This document shows, piece after piece, positions 5,859 to 28,125 of a stretch of DNA of 34,381 nt. Made by a program: the position numbers and the translations under genes. A model generated the notes under the pieces. The model made no database searches. It had not been told where the DNA came from and worked only from the letters and a program-made list of their open reading frames with translations. Every line of letters starts with the position of its first letter. Position 1 is the stretch's first letter. Origin of the DNA: an uncultured Granulicella sp. (GTDB lineage Bacteria; Acidobacteriota; Terriglobia; Terriglobales; Acidobacteriaceae); NCBI GenBank assembly GCA_937873265.1, contig CALMVL010000242.1, forward strand, positions 1-34,381. The letters run 5' to 3'.

Positions 5859-5989
5859 TGCTGCTGATTGTAGCGGCCGACCCTTTCTGTCGACACATGT
5901 CCTGTTCTGAAACAGCCTGAAGATTTCGCCGGCGCAGCCGATAAAGCATGTGGGAGTCGAGAGGCACTGAGCAGCCGGTAAGAAGGCAT

Positions 5990-6001
5990 CCAGCTTTCCC
6001 G
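5990..6001 (+). repeat. 12-base element CCAGCTTTCCCG, copy 1 (upstream of GH5 gene)
   Basis: The element CCAGCTTTCCCG is preceded by GCAT and followed by ATTTGGGAA, giving a small inverted repeat TTCCC-GATTT-GGGAA. An identical 12-mer occurs at 7920-7931 upstream of the LPHTA surface-protein gene. Both copies are in leader regions on the same strand, about 130-165 bases before their genes, which suggests a shared regulatory site. No known regulator is recognised. Confidence 0.35.
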
Positions 6002-6040
6002 ATTTGGGAACGCAGCAATGAACTTCTTTTTGGCTGCAAA

Positions 6041-6064
6041 AGGATGCACATCCTTGTGCATCCT
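6041..6064 (+). promoter_or_regulatory. Perfect 10-bp inverted repeat with TCCT loop upstream of the GH5 gene
   Basis: AGGATGCACA at 6041-6050 and TGTGCATCCT at 6055-6064 are exact reverse complements separated by TCCT. The element lies about 90 bases before the GH5 start codon. It could be a dimeric regulator operator or an RNA hairpin in the leader. No T-tract follows, so an intrinsic terminator is unlikely. The rest of the 296-base spacer with ruvA holds no gene that I can see. Confidence 0.5.
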
Positions 6065-6154
6065 AACCACAGTGGCAGGATCCGACACAGCGCCGCCAGA
6101 TCGAAACACCTGGTCGTGCCATCGCTCCACAGTTGCTGGACCACGGAGACACCG

Positions 6155-7783
6155 ATGAGAAACAAACTCCTCCACTGCTTTTCCGCTCCATCCAGGGTGC
6201 TTGTCCACGGCGTAGCGATCGCAGCGGTGGCCAGCCTGGCTTTGATGTTCCCCGCCGGAGCCAGTTCGGTCCAGAAAGGCGAAAAGCTGCTTCAACATGC
6301 AGTCGAGATTGCCCCCAAGCTGCCGGCGCTCCGCCGCGGCGGCGAGTTCTGGCATACAGATCGGAACCGGGTCCTCGACGCGCACAATCGCGAGATTCGC
6401 ATTGCCGGCGTCAACTGGAGCGGCTTCGAGACGCGGCGCGCCGTTCCCGGCGGCCTCACCGTTCAGGACTACCGGACAATTCTGCATACGATCAGGGCGC
6501 AGGGCTACAACACCGTCCGGCTGCCGCTCTCAAACGAGATGATCGAGTCTCCGACGGTTCCAAGCGACATCGCCTACACCGCGAACGGAGAGGCGATCAA
6601 CGGGGACTTGGACGGGCTGAACTCCCTGCAGATCCTGGATAAGATCGTTGCCGCGGCCGGCACGGCTGGCCTAAAGGTCATCCTTGATAACCATCGCTCC
6701 GAGGCCGGCGACAGCGCCGAGCCGAACGGCCTGTGGTTTACGCCGGAGTACCCGGAGGCGGCGTGGATCGCCGATTGGGTGATGCTGGCCAAACGCTTCC
6801 GGAACGATGCGACCGTGATCGGCATGGACCTGCGTAACGAGCCGCACAACGCCGCCACCACCGGCGCCTGCTGGGATTGCGGGGGAGACCGCGACTGGCA
6901 CCTCGCGGCCGAGCGCGCCGGCAACGCGGTCTTGCACGAGAATCCGCAGCTTCTCATCTTTGTGGAAGGCGTTGACACCTACGCCGGCGAGAGCTCGTGG
7001 TGGGGCGGCAACTTGATCGGGGTTCGCCGTTCGCCCGTTCGCCTGGCTCTGCCGAACCGCCTGGTCTACTCCGCTCATGTGTACGGCCCGGTGGAGTACA
7101 AGCAGGCGTGGTTCAACGAATCCACCTCGGCCGCATCGCTGCGGGCTGTGTGGCGGCGACAGTGGGCCTACATCAGCGAGGGCGGGATCGCGCCGGTCTG
7201 GATCGGCGAGTTTGGCACGCCCAACACGGACGCAGATGTGCGCAGCGCTGACCCCGGCTCCGAGGGCCAGTGGTTCTCCGAACTTGTGCGCTTCCTCCAC
7301 GAGGAGCCCAGCCTGCAATGGACCTACTGGGATATCAATGGGGAAGACCGATACGGCCTGCTGGACACTCGGTACGGCACGCAGCCGGTGAATGCGCTCA
7401 AGGCCGAGGTTCTGGCCAGCATTTTGCCCGGTCACCTGGATCCACGCGGCGCATCCGCGCCGGTACCCGACGCCGCGCGCGCATCGCAGCCGGTGACGGT
7501 CATGCCCGTGGCCGTCTCACCGTCGGTCGCGCCCGGTCCTCCTCCTGCAGCCTTCGATCCGTATGCCGCGGCGGCCCGGGAGGAGGTTGAGCGGAATTTA
7601 TTCTCCTCTGAGGGTGCAAAACTCACGCCAGAGCCGCGCGAGCCCAGGCCTGCTCTTCGTCAACTTCCCCCACCAGCAGCCGCGCCGGGACCAGAGACCC
7701 ATGTAAAGACTGCGGTGGCCAATGACGTGCAGCAGGCAATTGCCGCGGCGATGCAGGCTGCACCTGTCCCGAAATCTCGCTAA
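6155..7783 (+). CDS. Secreted GH5-family glycoside hydrolase (cellulase-like)
   Basis: This is a 542-residue retaining glycoside hydrolase of the GH5 fold, probably an endo-beta-glucanase or mannanase; the substrate cannot be fixed from sequence. An N-terminal signal or anchor segment (about 14-36) is followed by the catalytic TIM barrel (about 60-425). Visible active-site residues are Arg123 in VRLPLS, His180 in LDNHRS, acid/base Glu229 in DLRNEP, His308 and Tyr310 in SAHVYGP, and nucleophile Glu352 in VWIGEFGTPN. The last roughly 115 residues are Pro/Ala-rich with an acidic helical patch, probably a linker or disordered tail; no carbohydrate-binding module is recognised. ATG at 6155 was chosen because GGAGA lies 7 bases upstream and a signal sequence follows; longer in-frame starts reach into the leader hairpin. 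Confidence 0.9.
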   Translation: MRNKLLHCFSAPSRVLVHGVAIAAVASLALMFPAGASSVQKGEKLLQHAVEIAPKLPALRRGGEFWHTDRNRVLDAHNREIRIAGVNWSGFETRRAVPGGLTVQDYRTILHTIRAQGYNTVRLPLSNEMIESPTVPSDIAYTANGEAINGDLDGLNSLQILDKIVAAAGTAGLKVILDNHRSEAGDSAEPNGLWFTPEYPEAAWIADWVMLAKRFRNDATVIGMDLRNEPHNAATTGACWDCGGDRDWHLAAERAGNAVLHENPQLLIFVEGVDTYAGESSWWGGNLIGVRRSPVRLALPNRLVYSAHVYGPVEYKQAWFNESTSAASLRAVWRRQWAYISEGGIAPVWIGEFGTPNTDADVRSADPGSEGQWFSELVRFLHEEPSLQWTYWDINGEDRYGLLDTRYGTQPVNALKAEVLASILPGHLDPRGASAPVPDAARASQPVTVMPVAVSPSVAPGPPPAAFDPYAAAAREEVERNLFSSEGAKLTPEPREPRPALRQLPPPAAAPGPETHVKTAVANDVQQAIAAAMQAAPVPKSR

Positions 7784-8054: not shown

Positions 8055-8873
8055 ATGCTGAAGAGATTGATCTGTGCTGTTTTTGTCCTCGGCGCACCAT
8101 TGGCCGCCCGCGCCGTCGACCCGACCGGCGCTTCCGCAACGTTCACTGTCACTCAGCAGACCAAGGTTCCCGGCGAAACGTTGAAGCCCGGCGACTACAC
8201 AATCCGCATCGTGGATCATCTCTCTGATCGTCTGATAGTGCGCGTCGACTCGGCGAATGGAAAAACTCACTCCACCTTTCTCGGGCTGCAGGGCTCCGAC
8301 GTGAGCCGGCCGTCGGCTCCGGGTGCGGTCGCTTGGGAAAACACCTCACAAAAGGCGACCTACCTGAAGGGGTTTCTCTTTCCGAACATGAACTCCGTAG
8401 TGGAGTTCGTGTACCCCAAGGAAGATGCCGTGGCCATTGCCAAGTCAAACCAGAGCAAGGTGCCGGCGATCGATCCGGCGTCGGAGGGCAAAGTCGCTGA
8501 CAAGGGTCTGTCGAAAGACGACATGGAAGTCGTGACGCTCTGGCTGCTCTCGGCGACCACCGTGGGACCGAATGACTCGGTTCCGGCGATCAAGGCCGAG
8601 AAGTATCAGCAGGTGGCCAGCAACGAGCCGCCCCCGCAGCCTGCGCAGCAGGTCCAGCAAGCCAACCAGGGTGCGAACTACGCCGCCGGTTCAACGCCGA
8701 CCGACACGGCAAGTGCGGCGCCGGTCCGAGCGCCTCGCGCGCATAAGCCGGTTGTCGCCGCCCTGCCGCACACCGCGAGCGCCATGCCCATAGTCTGGCT
8801 TCTCGGTGTTCTCTCTTTGTTCGGCGCGCTGACGATGCGGTTCGCGCGACTTCAACGAGCGAGCCAGCGGTAA
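8055..8873 (+). CDS. Surface protein with LPHTA sortase-type sorting signal
   Basis: This 272-residue secreted protein has a signal peptide (1-20, cleavage after AARA). A beta-rich N-terminal domain (about 21-170) contains a GDYTIRIVD-type strand pattern common in acidobacterial secreted proteins. A Pro/Gln/Ala-rich stalk (about 190-235) follows. The C-terminus has the three parts of a cell-wall sorting signal: the pentapeptide LPHTA (237-241), a hydrophobic segment (about 244-261) and the basic tail RFARLQRASQR. A sortase would cleave between Thr and Ala. The sortase gene begins 1 base after its stop codon, so this is very likely its dedicated substrate. The start at 8055 is fixed by AGGAG at 8042-8046, 8 bases upstream. 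The molecular role of the exposed domain is unknown. Confidence 0.85.
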   Translation: MLKRLICAVFVLGAPLAARAVDPTGASATFTVTQQTKVPGETLKPGDYTIRIVDHLSDRLIVRVDSANGKTHSTFLGLQGSDVSRPSAPGAVAWENTSQKATYLKGFLFPNMNSVVEFVYPKEDAVAIAKSNQSKVPAIDPASEGKVADKGLSKDDMEVVTLWLLSATTVGPNDSVPAIKAEKYQQVASNEPPPQPAQQVQQANQGANYAAGSTPTDTASAAPVRAPRAHKPVVAALPHTASAMPIVWLLGVLSLFGALTMRFARLQRASQR

Positions 8874-8874
8874 G

Positions 8875-9501
8875 GTGAAACGCAGAGGAACGGTTCGGCA
8901 AGCAGCCACTCGTCTGGAGTGGCTGCTTTGGGTCGTAGCCATCGCTTCGGTTGGCTACACCTGTCTCTGGAGCGGAGAGGTTTACGCCGCGCGATGGCAC
9001 GCCCAGAGTATCGGGCAGGCTATGCCCGAAGGTGGCCCGGCTGCCTCCGCCGCCACTGCGCCGGATGCACCGAAACAAGCCTCCTCAGTCATGGGTCGAT
9101 TGGAAATCCCTGGAATCGGCCTGGCCGTTCCGGTGATGGCGGACTTCGATCCGGCAAGTCTCCGGCGCGGCGTTGGGCATATCCAAGGAACGGCGCTGCC
9201 GGGTGGCCTGGGCACCCTTGGCCTGGCCGGACATCGCGACACCTTCTTCCGCCCGCTGGCCCACATCGCCAAAGGCATGGACATCCGCGTAACCGACGCA
9301 AGTGGCACCTACCACTACCGTGTGGATGGCACCGAGATCGTCACCCCGGACCAGGTGCAGGTGCTGGATATCCGGAACGAACCGAAGCTAACCCTAATTA
9401 CCTGCTACCCATTCGACTTCATTGGACAAGCGCCCAAGCGGTTCATCGTGCACGCGAATCTCGTATCTCTGGAACCGGATGCTCCGGCGCACACGCACTA
9501 A
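8875..9501 (+). CDS. Sortase (class D-like transpeptidase)
   Basis: Sortases are membrane-bound cysteine transpeptidases that cleave a C-terminal sorting signal and attach the protein to an amine acceptor. This 208-residue protein has an N-terminal anchor helix (about 14-32), a Pro/Ala-rich linker and a sortase beta-barrel (about 70-200). The catalytic triad is visible: His120 in LAGHRDTFF, Cys177 in TLITCYPF and Arg189 in PKRFIV. The single N-terminal anchor, the TLxTC signature and the LPHTA substrate next door fit class D best, but class assignment needs a tree. The GTG start at 8875 lies 1 base after the substrate stop codon, indicating translational coupling. In a probable diderm the acceptor is unclear, which makes the pair notable. 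Confidence 0.9.
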   Translation: MKRRGTVRQAATRLEWLLWVVAIASVGYTCLWSGEVYAARWHAQSIGQAMPEGGPAASAATAPDAPKQASSVMGRLEIPGIGLAVPVMADFDPASLRRGVGHIQGTALPGGLGTLGLAGHRDTFFRPLAHIAKGMDIRVTDASGTYHYRVDGTEIVTPDQVQVLDIRNEPKLTLITCYPFDFIGQAPKRFIVHANLVSLEPDAPAHTH

Positions 9502-9774: not shown

Positions 9775-11199
9775 GTGACCGCGAAGATCCTAGACAAACA
9801 AGCAACTCACCCCAATCTGATTCTCGGGATCTGCTGCATGAGCCTGCTCATTGTGGGCATGGACGTCACGATCGTGAATGTGGCGTTGCCCGCGATCCAG
9901 CGTGATCTCCATGCCACGCTTTCCGGCCTGCAGTGGGTCGTTGATGCGTACACGCTGGTCGTGGCCAGTTTGCTGATGTTTTCCGGGGCAGTGAGCGATC
10001 GTGTCGGACGGCGACGTGTCTTTCAGATTGGGCTGGTGATGTTTACGGCAGGATCTGTGCTCTGCTCGCTGGCGCACAGCATTGGGCAGCTGGTGGCTTT
10101 TCGCGCGATTCAGGGGCTGGGTGCATCCATGCTGAATCCCGTGGCGCTGTCGATCATTGCGAACGCCTTTCCGCAACCGAAGGACCGGGCGAGGGCGGTG
10201 GGGATCTGGGGCGCCGTTGCTGGAGTGTCGCTGGCATTGGGACCGCCACTGGGCGGAGCGTTGACGCAAAGTATCGGCTGGCGGGCGATCTTCTGGATCA
10301 ATCTGCCGATCGGGCTGATGGCCGTGGTGCTGGCGGCGCTGTTTGTGCCGGAGTCGAAGGCGGCGAAGGCGAGGACTTTTGATCCCGTCGGGCAGGCGCT
10401 GGTCTTCCTTTTTCTGGTTGCCGCGACCTATGCGGTGATCGATGGACCGCATGCGGGCTGGCGGTCAGCGCAGACGGTCGCACTTTTTGCGCTCGCGGCG
10501 GCGAGCCTCTGCGGCTTTCTCCTCTATGAGGGACGGCGACGGGAGCCGTTGCTGGACTTGCGTTTTTTTCAGAGTGTGCCGTTCAGCACGGCGGCGGTGC
10601 TGGCGATGTGTGCCTTTGCGTCGTTTGCGGGATTTTTGTTCCTGAATGCGTTGTACCTGCAACAGGTGCGCGGCTTCTCGGCATTTCGGACGGGACTGTA
10701 CACGCTGCCGCTTGCGCTGATGCTGATGGTGTGCGCGCCGATCTCCGGGAGAATGGTGGGCAGCCTGGGGACGCGGCTGCCCTTGTTGCTCTCCGGCGGC
10801 GGCTTTCTGTTCAGCACTCTGCTGCTGACGCGATTGCACGAGGGAACGCCGATTCCGGTGCTGATGATTTCCTATGTGCTGTTTGGCGTGGGGCTCGGGA
10901 TGGTAAACCCGGCGATCACCAACAGCGCCGTGGCGGGCATGCCGCTGTCCCAGGCCGGGGTGGCGGCGGCGATCGCGTCCACCAGTAGACAGGTTGGGGC
11001 AGCGCTGGGCGTGGCGGTGGCGGGAACGGTCGTGAATGCCAGCCGCGCCCACGGGACAGACTTTGCGCGGGCCACACACCCCATCTGGTGGGCGATGGCG
11101 GCGGCTGGCGCGGTCGTGCTCGGGGCCGGCTTCGTCTCCAACACGGCTTGGGCCAAGAGGAGCGCGGAACAGGTAGCGGGATTGTTGACGGCGACTTGA
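9775..11199 (+). CDS. MFS transporter, DHA2 (14-TM EmrB/QacA-type) drug/proton antiporter
   Basis: This 474-residue multi-pass inner-membrane exporter should use the proton gradient to extrude drugs, metabolites or other small molecules. Family motifs are clear: MDVTIVNVALPAI in TM1 (29-41, the D1 motif of 14-TM exporters), GAVSDRVGRRRV (71-82, motif A), RAIQGLGASML (110-120, motif B) and GAVAGVSLALGPPLGG (146-161, motif C antiporter signature). The length fits the DHA2 subfamily. No membrane-fusion (EmrA) partner is adjacent, so it probably acts alone. The start is GTG at 9775; an overlapping ATG two codons earlier stops immediately in its own frame. It is convergent with the cupredoxin gene; the 220-base gap 11200-11419 shows no clear terminator or gene. 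Confidence 0.93.
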   Translation: MTAKILDKQATHPNLILGICCMSLLIVGMDVTIVNVALPAIQRDLHATLSGLQWVVDAYTLVVASLLMFSGAVSDRVGRRRVFQIGLVMFTAGSVLCSLAHSIGQLVAFRAIQGLGASMLNPVALSIIANAFPQPKDRARAVGIWGAVAGVSLALGPPLGGALTQSIGWRAIFWINLPIGLMAVVLAALFVPESKAAKARTFDPVGQALVFLFLVAATYAVIDGPHAGWRSAQTVALFALAAASLCGFLLYEGRRREPLLDLRFFQSVPFSTAAVLAMCAFASFAGFLFLNALYLQQVRGFSAFRTGLYTLPLALMLMVCAPISGRMVGSLGTRLPLLLSGGGFLFSTLLLTRLHEGTPIPVLMISYVLFGVGLGMVNPAITNSAVAGMPLSQAGVAAAIASTSRQVGAALGVAVAGTVVNASRAHGTDFARATHPIWWAMAAAGAVVLGAGFVSNTAWAKRSAEQVAGLLTAT

Positions 11200-11419: not shown

Positions 11420-12145
11420 TCAATAAGCGGGATCCCGCTCAGGCCCGTACGGCTCGCCGAACTTGTTCGTGTGCGGCTGCCGAGGTCCGGTGGATGCCGG
11501 GATGAGAAAGGGGCCGAGGCGCTGGTTGGTGCTAGAAAGATGCACCGTGTGAACCCATCGAGCGAGGTTCGACTCGGTCTGCCCTTCCACCCAAAGATGG
11601 ATCTCGTACTCTCCCGGAGGCACATCGGGGATCAGGAACTGCCCGGAGGCGTTGGCGATGCTGAAGAGCGGTGTTGTGAGCGAGAGGACGACCGCGCTCA
11701 TCTCCGGGTGGATGTTACAGAAGATGTACGACACGCCTTCGCGGGAGAAGACGACATTCTTGGTCTTCCCGGCCTCGTAGAGTCCCAGGTCGAAGCGCTT
11801 GCCGTCGAAGAGCGAGAACACGTTGTGAAAGAAAGGGTCGTGGTTGGGGAAGGCGACGGACGCACCCACGGGCACGACCAGCACGTGCGGGGAGAACGTC
11901 TTATTTTTTTGCGAAAGGACATAGCTGCCCTGGGGACTGAAGGCCACGACACCAAGGCTGCCCATCGGCTTCAGCCAGAGCACCGCAGGAGGAAGGTGTT
12001 GCGCGTGGCCGTGCGGCGGGGAAGGCGGCTGCTGTTGCAACTCCGCGGAAACGGCCAAGGTGGTTTGCGCGGGCAACCGTACTGCGGGCGCCATCCACAC
12101 TCCGACTCCGGCGAGCCCACAGAAGAAGCTTCGCCGCGCGCTCAA
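11420..12145 (-). CDS. Periplasmic cupredoxin (plastocyanin/MauL-like) with carboxypeptidase-regulatory-like C-domain
   Basis: This 241-residue exported protein is the last gene of an eight-gene operon. The N-terminus (MSARRSFFCGLAGVGVWMAP) looks like a signal peptide. A cupredoxin domain (about 53-155) carries a complete type-1 copper ligand set: His107 in FFHNVFS, then Cys143, His146 and Met149 in FCNIHPEM. This should make it a mononuclear blue copper electron carrier. Residues about 158-215 form a small beta-sandwich of the carboxypeptidase-regulatory type (FLIPDVPPGEYEIHLWVEG). A histidine-containing stretch, PPHGHAQHLPP, lies just before the cupredoxin domain. The start is TTG at 12145, overlapping the upstream stop codon as TTGA. 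The electron donor and acceptor are unknown; the operon context suggests a periplasmic redox or copper-responsive role. Confidence 0.85.
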   Translation of the reverse strand: MSARRSFFCGLAGVGVWMAPAVRLPAQTTLAVSAELQQQPPSPPHGHAQHLPPAVLWLKPMGSLGVVAFSPQGSYVLSQKNKTFSPHVLVVPVGASVAFPNHDPFFHNVFSLFDGKRFDLGLYEAGKTKNVVFSREGVSYIFCNIHPEMSAVVLSLTTPLFSIANASGQFLIPDVPPGEYEIHLWVEGQTESNLARWVHTVHLSSTNQRLGPFLIPASTGPRQPHTNKFGEPYGPERDPAY

Positions 12146-24639: not shown

Positions 24640-27600
24640 ATGATCATCCAGTCCTTATCGACACCGTTCACAAGATCGCCACGAACTGCACGCCTCGTCC
24701 TTATCCTGGGCATTCTTGCCACCGCCGTCCTTCCGCACGCCCGCGGGCAGTCTGACTCGGGGCGGGTGGTCGGGACGGTAACGGACCCGACCGGCGCGGT
24801 CATCCCGCAGGCCAGCATCACGCTGCTGAACCAAACGACGGGGCTGAAGCTGACCGGCACCTCCAATGCCAGTGGTGAGCTCAACGTTTCAGCTGTACCT
24901 GCGGGTGACTACGTTGCCACGGTCACCGCGCCCGGGTTCCAGACGCAGACCCAGGCGCTCACCGTCCGAGTGACCACAAGCCTGACGGTCAACTTCTCCC
25001 TGAAGCCTGGAGCGGAGACAACGACCGTCGAGGTGACCGGAGCCGTATCCCTGGTCAATACGTCCGATCCGACACTTGGCGAGACGATCGAAGAAAAGCA
25101 GATCACTGAGTTGCCTCTGAACGGCCGCAACGCACTCAACCTTGCCCTGCTGACCCCGGGGGTGACGCAGGGGGCCTACGCCGAACAAGGCCAGGACACC
25201 GCAGGCCGTCACGGGGACACCGGCGGAAGCGCCATCTCCATCAACGCAACGCGTCCTCAGGCCAACAACTTCATCCTGGACGGTGTTGACAACAACGACA
25301 GCCTTCAGAACGTCATTCTCTTCTTCCCACCTGTGGATGCCACGCAGGAGTTCAAGGTCAACACGAGCGTCGCCCCCGCGCAGTACGGACGTGCCGGTGG
25401 AGCCCTGGTGGTGAGCTCGATCAAATCCGGCACCAATCAGCTGCACGGGTCGGCGTTCGACTTCTACCGCAGCAATAAATGGGCGGCTAATCCAAACTAC
25501 GAATTCCCCTACAACGACTTACCCGCCGGGGCAAAGCCCCCCTACAACCGGAACCAGTTCGGCGGTTCCGCTGGGATGCCCCTGATCAAAAATAAGCTTT
25601 TCATCTTCGGCGATTACGAAGGCACACGCTATCACCAGCCAGCGGGTAGCGGCTACGATACGGTGCCGACAGCGCTGATGCGTCAAGGCAACTTCCAGGA
25701 ACTGCTTGACCCGGTCCTTGCAAGTGCGGGTCTGACAAATGGCGGCCCCCCTGTGTACACAACGTATTTTCCGCGCTGCTACCCGAACTCCGGCACCTTG
25801 GACGCCAACGGTGTTCCTGCTTCCAGCAAAGGTCAGATCTACGATCCCCTGACCTGCGCACCCTTCGCAAATAACATCATTCCGGCGAGCCGGTTGAACC
25901 CCGTCTCAGTGAACTATCTCAATGCCTTTCCGCTGCCCACGCGCACGGATCGCCTTATCGGCAACTACTTCTTTCAGCAAAACCAGATTGGGAAGTACAA
26001 CACCTTCGATACGCGTCTGGACTGGACCGCCTCCGGCAGCGACCTGTTCTTCTTCCGGTTTTCGTACGACAACACCTCTTCCGACCAGAACTCGCAACTC
26101 GCCCCAAATGGCAATGGCCCACTTCTGAATGCTTCGGGTCAACTGAACTACCTCCACGCCCGCGGCTACGACCTGGGATATACGCATACTTTTTCTCCCC
26201 GCGCCGTCAACGAAGCCCGTATCGCCTACAACCGTGATAACTATGGCTATCTGCCTCCCAATGTTGGGACTTCGGTGGGAGCGGAACTGGGCATCAACGA
26301 TACAACCTTAGGTGACGCGGTAAACACGGGCGGACCTTTGACCGGAGGCTATGGAACCGATCTGACCTACACGGGCGATTACGGCGTGTTTGAGGTGCCG
26401 CAGAATATCTACGAGGTCACGGATACCCTAAGCCTCAACCTTCATAGTCATCAACTCAGCATGGGCGGAACGCTGCTTCGGCGTGTAACAAACTACTACC
26501 GGCCCATTGAGGGGAAGGGAGGCCTATTCTACAGCCCCGAACTGTTCACCGGGTACGACGAAAGTGAGTACCTCGTAGGTGGCGTCAATCAATATCAGAT
26601 CGGCGCGCAGAACGGGTTCTTCTCAAACATCAACCAGGAAGATGCTCTGTTTGCCCAGGATAACTGGCGCGCTACCAAACGGCTCACGCTCAACCTTGGG
26701 CTCCGCTATGACCTGCTCACCTGGCCGTTCGAGGCGCATAACCGGCAGAGCTCGTTCAACGTGGCGAACGGTCAGGTGCTGGAGGCCGGTGTAGATGGCG
26801 TCTCCAAAACCATTGTCAAGCAGGATTACCTGAACTTCGCACCCCGCGTCGGGTTTGCCTATGATCTGAGCGGAGACGGCAGAACGGCTATCCACGGCGG
26901 ATACGGCATCTTCTACTTCCCAGACTACGGTGGCATCAATAATCAACTGGGACAGAACGGTCCCTTCAGTGGGAATAACTACTTCAACGCACAGGATGGA
27001 TATTGCATCACCTTGAGCGGTCAGACGGCGACCCGGCAGGCGCCCTTCTCCTGCGCCGGCTATACAAGTCCGGCGGCCGTAACCACACAACTGCCGACAC
27101 CGCCTACCGTCGCTTCCTTCGACCCCACAAACCCTCCTGCGGGTCTCGCCGGCACCGCAATCAACGTCAACAACAAGCACAGTCAAATCCAGCAATACAA
27201 CCTGCAGCTCCAGCAGCAGCTCTCACCCCGAGATGTATTCAGTGCTGCCTATGTCGGCACGGTGGGGAACCGGCTATCCACCTTTTACAACCTGACTCAA
27301 TACCACATCGGTGCGACGACGCTGCCATACCCAAACCAGGATGGTGGAATTACGTATAACTGGTACAACGGAAGCTCTAACTACAACGGGTTGCAATTGC
27401 ATTATGAGCATCGCGCCGCGAATTTCCTGGCGACTGCCTCCTATGCCTGGTCCCATGCGCTCGACAACACAAACAGCCCCTACGGCGGAACTCCCGTGGC
27501 CGTTCTGCTGTACTACGATCAGCCTGCTAACTACGGCAACTCCAGCCAGGATGAACGACACATCTTCAGTTCGTCTTTTGTCTACTCCCTGCCGTTTGGA

Positions 27601-28125
27601 CGCGGGCAGCGATTTGGAACAGGCGTCAATCGTGCCGTGGATCTGCTGATTGGAGGATGGCAGATCAACGATATCGTTCAGCTATCAACCGGACAACCGA
27701 TCGACATCCAAGCCTCCGGCGCCGGTCAACAGACGGTTACAAACCGGCCGGACCTCGTCGCCCCAATCGAGTATCCCAAAAAGCTGACCGAGTGGTTCAA
27801 TCCCGCCTCGTTCAACTCCACAGAGCTTCCATACCAGCAGGCAACAGATGGCACGGGAAATCTGGTGTACACGCGCGTGGGAACCCTCGGCCGCAACGCA
27901 GTCTACGGACCGGGATTCCGGGACATGGACCTTGGACTCCAGAAGAACCTTCATATCGCGGAAGGCAAGCAACTGGAACTCCATGGCGATGCCTTCAATG
28001 TGACGAATACACCCAGCTTCGCAAATCCGGCAAATACGGACGCTCAAAATGCTAACTTCGGCGCCATCACGGGTCTTCGCAGTTCATCACGCAAGATCCA
28101 GTTAGCCGCTCGCCTGGTGTTCTAA
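24640..28125 (+). CDS. TonB-dependent receptor, Oar-like, with carboxypeptidase-regulatory-like N-domain
   Basis: This 1161-residue outer-membrane transporter has a signal peptide (about 1-36, ending HARGQ). A carboxypeptidase-regulatory-like beta-sandwich (about 38-125) contains GTVTDPTGAVIPQASITL and VPAGDYVATVTAPGF. The TonB plug (about 130-265) contains TELPLNGRNALNLALLTPGV and FILDGVDNND, and the large beta-barrel ends with a terminal Phe (LAARLVF). This architecture is greatly expanded in Acidobacteriota and often linked to import of glycans or their fragments. The start is ATG at 24640 with a purine-rich GAGAAGAAG upstream. It is divergent from the membrane regulator and followed by a GH13 enzyme and a TonB gene, which suggests alpha-glucan uptake. 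No SusD-like lipoprotein is present. A hairpin follows 13 bases after the stop. Confidence 0.93.
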   Translation: MIIQSLSTPFTRSPRTARLVLILGILATAVLPHARGQSDSGRVVGTVTDPTGAVIPQASITLLNQTTGLKLTGTSNASGELNVSAVPAGDYVATVTAPGFQTQTQALTVRVTTSLTVNFSLKPGAETTTVEVTGAVSLVNTSDPTLGETIEEKQITELPLNGRNALNLALLTPGVTQGAYAEQGQDTAGRHGDTGGSAISINATRPQANNFILDGVDNNDSLQNVILFFPPVDATQEFKVNTSVAPAQYGRAGGALVVSSIKSGTNQLHGSAFDFYRSNKWAANPNYEFPYNDLPAGAKPPYNRNQFGGSAGMPLIKNKLFIFGDYEGTRYHQPAGSGYDTVPTALMRQGNFQELLDPVLASAGLTNGGPPVYTTYFPRCYPNSGTLDANGVPASSKGQIYDPLTCAPFANNIIPASRLNPVSVNYLNAFPLPTRTDRLIGNYFFQQNQIGKYNTFDTRLDWTASGSDLFFFRFSYDNTSSDQNSQLAPNGNGPLLNASGQLNYLHARGYDLGYTHTFSPRAVNEARIAYNRDNYGYLPPNVGTSVGAELGINDTTLGDAVNTGGPLTGGYGTDLTYTGDYGVFEVPQNIYEVTDTLSLNLHSHQLSMGGTLLRRVTNYYRPIEGKGGLFYSPELFTGYDESEYLVGGVNQYQIGAQNGFFSNINQEDALFAQDNWRATKRLTLNLGLRYDLLTWPFEAHNRQSSFNVANGQVLEAGVDGVSKTIVKQDYLNFAPRVGFAYDLSGDGRTAIHGGYGIFYFPDYGGINNQLGQNGPFSGNNYFNAQDGYCITLSGQTATRQAPFSCAGYTSPAAVTTQLPTPPTVASFDPTNPPAGLAGTAINVNNKHSQIQQYNLQLQQQLSPRDVFSAAYVGTVGNRLSTFYNLTQYHIGATTLPYPNQDGGITYNWYNGSSNYNGLQLHYEHRAANFLATASYAWSHALDNTNSPYGGTPVAVLLYYDQPANYGNSSQDERHIFSSSFVYSLPFGRGQRFGTGVNRAVDLLIGGWQINDIVQLSTGQPIDIQASGAGQQTVTNRPDLVAPIEYPKKLTEWFNPASFNSTELPYQQATDGTGNLVYTRVGTLGRNAVYGPGFRDMDLGLQKNLHIAEGKQLELHGDAFNVTNTPSFANPANTDAQNANFGAITGLRSSSRKIQLAARLVF

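Follow-up and report, generated by a model that had tools for sequence, protein, structure and literature searches.

The window analyzed here is a stretch of 34,381 nucleotides from an uncultured Granulicella sp. (GenBank assembly GCA_937873265.1, contig CALMVL010000242.1). It corresponds to contig C242 of the assembly, herein referred to as G000, which has a size of 3.6 Mb and is 73% complete. The window contains a gene for a protein with a C-terminal sorting signal, adjoined by a gene for a sortase. The following features of this two-gene cassette were identified:

8055..8873, + strand: gene for the sortase substrate, 272 aa (ORF and translation; 55 of the 200 genomes examined from the order have matches at E <= 0.001)
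8055..8114, + strand: predicted Sec-type N-terminal signal peptide, residues 1-20 (hydropathy windows at residues 1-5; sequence reading)
8118..8612, + strand: mature beta-rich domain, residues 22-186 (AlphaFold2 model of residues 22-187)
8403..8420, + strand: EFVYPK patch, residues 117-122; no highly conserved stretch of the substrate domain is longer (alignment)
8613..8762, + strand: Pro/Ala/Gln-rich, low-confidence linker of 50 residues, residues 187-236 (model pLDDT)
8763..8780, + strand: sorting motif LPHTAS, residues 237-242 (sequence, alignment)
8787..8837, + strand: helical, hydrophobic part of the sorting signal, approximately residues 245-261 (hydropathy; the model has a helix at 241-271)
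8838..8870, + strand: basic tail RFARLQRASQR (translation)
8875..9501, + strand: gene for a class-D-like sortase, 208 aa, GTG start (PF04203, 102.6 bits; NF058671, 132 against a cut-off of 140)
8914..8973, + strand: signal anchor at the N-terminus of the sortase, approximately residues 14-33 (hydropathy)
9232..9234, + strand: codon of the catalytic His120 (invariant in 110 of 110 sortases)
9403..9405, + strand: codon of the catalytic Cys177, in TLITCYPF (invariant in 110 of 110 sortases)
9439..9441, + strand: codon of the catalytic Arg189 (invariant in 110 of 110 sortases)

The substrate ORF begins with the ATG at 8055 and its stop codon ends at 8873. The signal peptide is predicted to be cleaved after ARA. 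The C-terminus of the protein, LPHTASAMPIVWLLGVLSLFGALTMRFARLQRASQR, combines an LPxT[AG] motif with a hydrophobic helix and a basic tail; thus, the complete LPxTA-type signal reported in the first-pass annotation is present. A conserved Pro (P245) lies three residues beyond LPHTAS, and the pattern LPxT[AG][SG]xxP is found in all 21 aligned substrates of related cassettes. As a weak test, the last 45 residues were shuffled, and LPxT[AG] arose in 503 of 100,000 shuffles. No model from Pfam or from NCBIfam (searched to E <= 1) matches the substrate, which is likewise unmatched by the sorting-signal models TIGR01167 (LPXTG_anchor) and PF00746.

The AlphaFold2 model of residues 22-187 has a mean pLDDT of 88.8 and a pTM of 0.85. 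In the linker, the block means of pLDDT are 44-57 for residues 191 to 240, and most of the linker is absent from many of the aligned relatives. Searches of the PDB with the whole substrate and with the domain alone (Foldseek, VIA-align) gave no convincing match, the best for the mature domain having a Foldseek E of 0.42 and a VIA-align Z of 3.7; a new fold is not claimed. Kinship with DUF2911 (PF11138) was considered because of a shared LPAGTY motif and is not supported by the scores: two of four distant relatives of the substrate score 17.1 and 16.7 against the gathering cut-off of 27 bits, and the protein from the window is unmatched.

Among the flanking genes, those for a GH5 glycosidase (5948-7783) upstream and for an MFS transporter (9775-11199) encode proteins in which no sorting signal was found by reading. 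The former, located directly upstream of the cassette, is a cellulase-type GH5 enzyme with a weak match to endoglycoceramidase (31.8 of 700 bits). A gene on the opposite strand (11420-12145) encodes a secreted-looking protein with only an fn3_3-like fragment (21.4 of 24.4 bits); by reading, this protein resembles periplasmic proteins of the cupredoxin type.

The GTG start codon of the sortase gene, at 8875, lies one base past the stop codon of the substrate gene. Residues 76-197 of its product match the Pfam Sortase model (PF04203) with 102.6 bits against a cut-off of 26.6. The superfamily model TIGR01076 is matched with 77.1 against 39.35, which places the protein in the sortase superfamily. 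In an alignment of 110 distinct acidobacterial sortases, G113, H120, R121, T176, C177, P179, P187, and R189 are invariant. The position of the sortase one base downstream and its catalytic His120, Cys177, and Arg189, all recorded before from the sequence, are thus borne out.

The nearest NCBIfam class is class D, with scores of 132 against 140 (NF058671) and 126.3 against 165 (NF033746). As both scores are below the cut-offs, the enzyme is herein referred to as class-D-like. In a quick maximum-likelihood tree of the 110 sortases, a branch with an SH-aLRT of 99 separates the 27 sortases of the cassettes from all the others. Six neighborhood labels, assigned by hand, required 14 changes on this tree vs. 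62.5 in shuffles, a clustering inflated by near-copies. A neighbor from a recognized cluster of signals was found for 76 of the 110 sortases. The other 34 were labeled as having none; at some of these (L125, L138, L155, and L189), a single signal ORF outside any cluster is present, and the scan of neighbors missed the class GN target adjoining the sortase at L184.

Cassettes of the same structure were found in 24 loci (L002-L025). In all 24 of them, the motif, the helix, the tail, and the gene pairing are repeated, and a possible start codon of the sortase is located from -20 to +13 nt from the stop codon of the substrate. Some of the loci are near-copies of each other, such as L007 and L008 or L010 and L011. 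At the level of sequence, this recurrence in 24 of 24 loci is strong evidence against a chance arrangement. For 19 loci, wider flanks were available, some of them ending at a contig edge. Only the substrate and the sortase are common to all 19 (ORFs of at least 130 aa); the next most widespread cluster of flanking genes was found in 11 of the 19 loci and is absent from the window.

The two genes are also inherited together. Among the 40 counted relatives from the genus, 19 have both genes, 3 have only the sortase, and 18 are listed with neither. Thus, the presence of the substrate agrees with that of the sortase in 37 of the 40 genomes (Fisher p 1.2e-8, with kinship ignored). Of 200 genomes examined from the order, 55 have a match to the substrate (E <= 0.001) and 83 have a sortase. 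A sortase is located within 5 kb of 46 of the 58 order-wide substrate matches, with a tail-only match (G073) and repeat matches of one gene excluded. In a sample of the phylum, sortases were found in 59 of 297 genomes; of the 43 matches to the substrate domain, 29 have a sortase no more than 5 kb away, and 31 of the 35 domain-bearing genomes have a sortase. Excluding the eight genomes that are also in the sample of the order leaves 20 of 34 matches near a sortase and 23 of 27 domain-bearing genomes with one.

In total, 70 distinct ORFs with the substrate domain were collected. The sorting signal is carried by 56 of the 57 ORFs located within 4 kb of a sortase vs. 3 of the 13 located elsewhere; because the presence of a sortase was the reason for including many of the loci, this set is not a random sample. 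At L082, a sortase lies nearby and the domain ORF has a coiled-coil-like tail instead of the signal. At L085, L204, and L192, signal-bearing ORFs were found with no sortase within 4 kb, L204 being close to a contig end. The copy at L192 (4050-4757, the same gene as in L031) is split by an in-frame stop codon and was counted as two pieces. Domain copies unlinked to a sortase are mostly secreted-looking frames of 158-210 aa. Short secreted-looking copies with neither a sorting signal nor a sortase in the stretch examined were found at L195-L198 and L200-L203.

The substrate had been proposed to be the only one of its sortase, a proposal that a genome scan for other LPxTA proteins could have overturned. 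A profile built from 36 sorting signals was searched against 40 genomes, among them 23 of the 24 cassette genomes (G050 was left out). In G000, 73% complete, one sortase and one strong signal were found. Each of the 23 cassette genomes, that is, G000 and 22 relatives, has one strong signal, with E from 1.5e-17 to 9e-11; the next best match in any of these 23 genomes has an E of 0.005. Because some of the scanned genomes contributed signals to the profile, finding those signals again is expected; the test lies in the absence of a second strong signal. Six runner-ups read in frame proved to be ordinary helices or internal stretches, none of them a substrate. Three members of the genus with another sortase gave E of 3.6e-8, 0.002, and 0.012, and the best E among fourteen members without a sortase was 0.019. 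As a check on signals left out of the model, a profile built from 22 cassette signals was tried on 14 signals from other groups. All 14 scored between 16.5 and 38.7 bits, and the highest score among 3728 decoys was 18.6; thus, the lowest-scoring true signals overlap in score with the highest-scoring decoys.

Only one sortase was found in 20 of the 22 cassette relatives. The other two, G052 and G148, have two sortases each; downstream of the second one lies a separate substrate whose tail is divergent (L122 and L123). Dedication is therefore a matter of each sortase rather than of each genome. In the scan, these second substrates gave E of only 0.05 and 0.024, so a divergent second substrate could escape it in other genomes as well. 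Searches of G000 at the DNA level gave a strict sorting pattern at 3 places vs. 4 in the reversed control, and a looser pattern, which proved uninformative, at 288 places vs. 278. Both places of the strict pattern outside the cassette, read in frame, have no helix after the motif. TIGR01167 gave six matches in G000, of which one exceeds the cut-off (17.0 vs. 15.9 bits) and is a 62-aa frame without LPxT. This model misses the cassette in G000 yet has matches in all 14 control genomes (above the cut-off in 9), and is therefore uninformative for counting substrates. From these scans, with no second substrate detected, the substrate-sortase pair looks dedicated.

The description of the host as a probable Gram-negative can be made more precise. 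LptD was found in G000 and in all three relatives examined for it; of the 14 control genomes, E. coli and Caulobacter alone gave a match. The window itself contains a gene for an outer-membrane beta-barrel protein (24640-28125, Pfam). By these sequence markers, the host is confirmed as a diderm acidobacterium, a relative of Granulicella and Edaphobacter. MurE with a DNPR motif, which we take to be a mark of the addition of meso-diaminopimelate (meso-DAP), was found in all three relatives and was not found in G000, which is 73% complete. The LPHTA substrate next to its sortase, together with the DNPR-type MurE of the relatives, would be consistent with the action of a class D enzyme on LPxTA with meso-DAP.

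We consider it probable that the two genes form a dedicated sortase system, in which the substrate domain is linked in the periplasm to an amine of peptidoglycan, most likely that of meso-DAP. The substrate would be exported by Sec and its signal peptide removed, after which the C-terminal helix and the basic tail would hold it in the inner membrane. The membrane-anchored sortase would then cut LPHT|A, forming an acyl-enzyme on Cys177. The carboxylate of Thr would be passed to an amine of a peptidoglycan precursor; the best candidate is the amine on the side chain of meso-DAP. The mature domain would end covalently attached to peptidoglycan in the periplasm. No route across the outer membrane is known for the product, which is therefore expected to remain periplasmic. 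The closest tested precedent is SrtC of Bacillus anthracis, which is reported to cut LPNTA between T and A with meso-DAP as the nucleophile (PMC3297441) and is assigned to class D (PMC3208642). Since the class D scores of the sortase from the window are below the cut-offs, a mechanism with meso-DAP is proposed for it by analogy.

The sortase might alternatively act mainly as a processing protease: LPHT|A would be cut, water or a small amine would resolve the acyl-enzyme, and the domain would be freed into the periplasm. Most members of the substrate family located away from sortases look plainly secreted and have no membrane tag, so a free domain is evidently useful. However, a signal peptide alone gives a free periplasmic protein, and by this argument a tag with a dedicated sortase would be a costly way to the same end; the catalytic His, Cys, and Arg are, moreover, all retained. 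Release is therefore regarded as unlikely.

The Thr of LPHT could also be joined to Lys122 in the EFVYPK patch of the next subunit, giving a fiber, periplasmic or on the surface, made of one protein by one enzyme. Five residues of the patch (E117, F118, Y120, P121, and K122) are invariant in the 21 aligned cassette substrates, and Lys is kept at position 122 in 54 of 59 signal-bearing domain ORFs. Pilin-specific sortases use the lysine of YPK(N), and the lysine of YPKN is described as the nucleophile in Gram-positive pili (PMC3297441). However, Arg or Gln replaces Lys122 in 5 of the 59 signal-bearing ORFs, and Lys is also kept in 5 of the 9 ORFs without a signal that have a residue at this position. 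The classical pilin motif includes a Trp and a first Val, neither of which is aligned in the substrate. The score for the pilin-polymerizing class C (NF033745) is 76.8 of the required 160 bits, and hydropathy indicated no C-terminal hydrophobic stretch in the sortase. A lid motif of the DPW type, a feature of the class C (pilin) sortases, is absent from its sequence. In addition, a pilus would need to traverse the outer membrane. Because Lys122 is replaced in some signal-bearing members and kept in some members without a signal, such a polymer is considered very unlikely, less likely than release.

Assignment of the cassette to the described class GN system, composed of a TIGR03784 sortase and a TIGR03788 target with VIT and VWA domains, is hardly credible. 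The layout is the same, a dedicated sortase beside a single target in a Gram-negative bacterium (PMC3237569). All 110 sortases match TIGR03784 at E <= 1e-5, just as they match most of the sortase classes, and a sortase from the same bacterial family, at L184, passes this model with a TIGR03788 target beside it. The assignment is contradicted by the score of the sortase from the window (83.7 vs. the cut-off of 158.25) and by the substrate, which matches no NCBIfam model; in the tree, a different branch, marked with a star, carries the sortases of L184, L185, and L187. Finally, a decayed or unused gene pair, suggested by the patchy distribution in the genus, where the 18 listed members without a sortase also lack the substrate, is just as implausible, as both frames are open, the sorting signal is complete, all catalytic residues are retained, and the two genes agree in presence in 37 of the 40 counted relatives from the genus.

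The first-pass annotation regarded sortase substrates of diderms as poorly described, and this view holds in part. Gram-negative sortases dedicated to a single neighboring target have already been published as class GN (PMC3237569); the enzyme from the window, on the other side, scores far below that class. The cassette adds to this known kind a variant whose sortase is class-D-like and whose substrate family is new. Having one sortase and one detected substrate in a genome removes the usual redundancy and thus provides a clean handle on the function of diderm sortases, on the amine that they use, and on the location of the product. If the linkage to peptidoglycan is true, it would add a further route, beside the L,D-transpeptidases, for attaching proteins to diderm peptidoglycan. 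Similar pairs are kept by relatives across the phylum, which gives the system a reach beyond one genome.

Among the known systems, the most similar are those of class D with LPxTA-type signals, in B. anthracis (SrtC) and Bacillus cellulosilyticus (sortase D, subfamily 4), which share with the cassette the best-scoring class and the type of signal. The genes for BasI and SrtC form one operon (PMC3208642) and Bcell_0651 and Bcell_0652 are adjoining substrate and sortase genes (PMC3617157), as in the window. In contrast to the one substrate detected in G000, SrtC is described with two substrates, BasI and BasH (PMC3208642), and B. cellulosilyticus with 27 LPXTA proteins and four sortases (PMC3617157). 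Unlike these class D systems, the cassette has a diderm host, a sortase with scores under the class D cut-offs, and a substrate domain with no family match. Class GN, described as strictly Gram-negative (TIGR03784), resembles the cassette in its one-to-one pairing (PMC3237569). Its target, as seen at L184, is a large VIT/VWA protein, unlike the substrate in the window, and the sortase in the window falls outside the class. The rhombosortase/GlyGly-CTERM and exosortase/PEP-CTERM systems (the latter described in PMC1569441) also combine a tripartite C-terminal signal with a processing enzyme, the term "dedicated system" being taken from PMC3237569, but their enzymes and motifs are unrelated. Braun's lipoprotein and outer-membrane proteins linked by L,D-transpeptidases are proteins covalently bound to diderm peptidoglycan (PMC8263019), as the substrate would be; unlike the cassette, they depend on L,D-transpeptidase chemistry and have no sorting signal. 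A table in the paper on the Solibacter genome gives Sortase with the figure 6 (PMC3174227). No description of acidobacterial LPxTA cassettes was found in the open-license literature by title and opening of the abstract.

Sortases in other genomic contexts were also found in the analyzed loci. A three-gene form, present in other acidobacterial genera (L141, L142, L150, L154, L178, and others), consists of a gene for a related LPxTA substrate with the same domain, a gene for an acidobact_VWFA protein, and then a sortase gene, with about 1 kb between the first and the last gene. The VWFA protein belongs to TIGR03436, as checked in L141, L150, and L178. The class GN pair at L184 (1249-3971) was found in the same bacterial family as the window; its target scores 623.2 vs. 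551.65 bits for TIGR03788 and its sortase 170.9 vs. 158.25 for TIGR03784. The sortases of L185 and L187 group with that of L184 in the tree.

A second substrate family, mostly with LPKTGS-type signals, is encoded directly downstream of a sortase in 18 loci, two of which are the same place: L060 (= L148), L119, L121-L123, L151, L160, L163, L165-L167, L169, L172, L174, L182, L186, and L188. The signals at L121 and L122 are divergent (AGTNLPLFG-like), with no canonical LPxT at that place. A large separate branch of the sortase tree comprises 27 rows, of which 23 are without a recognized substrate. It includes the sortases of L124 and L131, which are followed by ORFs named by reading as FAD-oxidoreductase-like and sensor-kinase-like.
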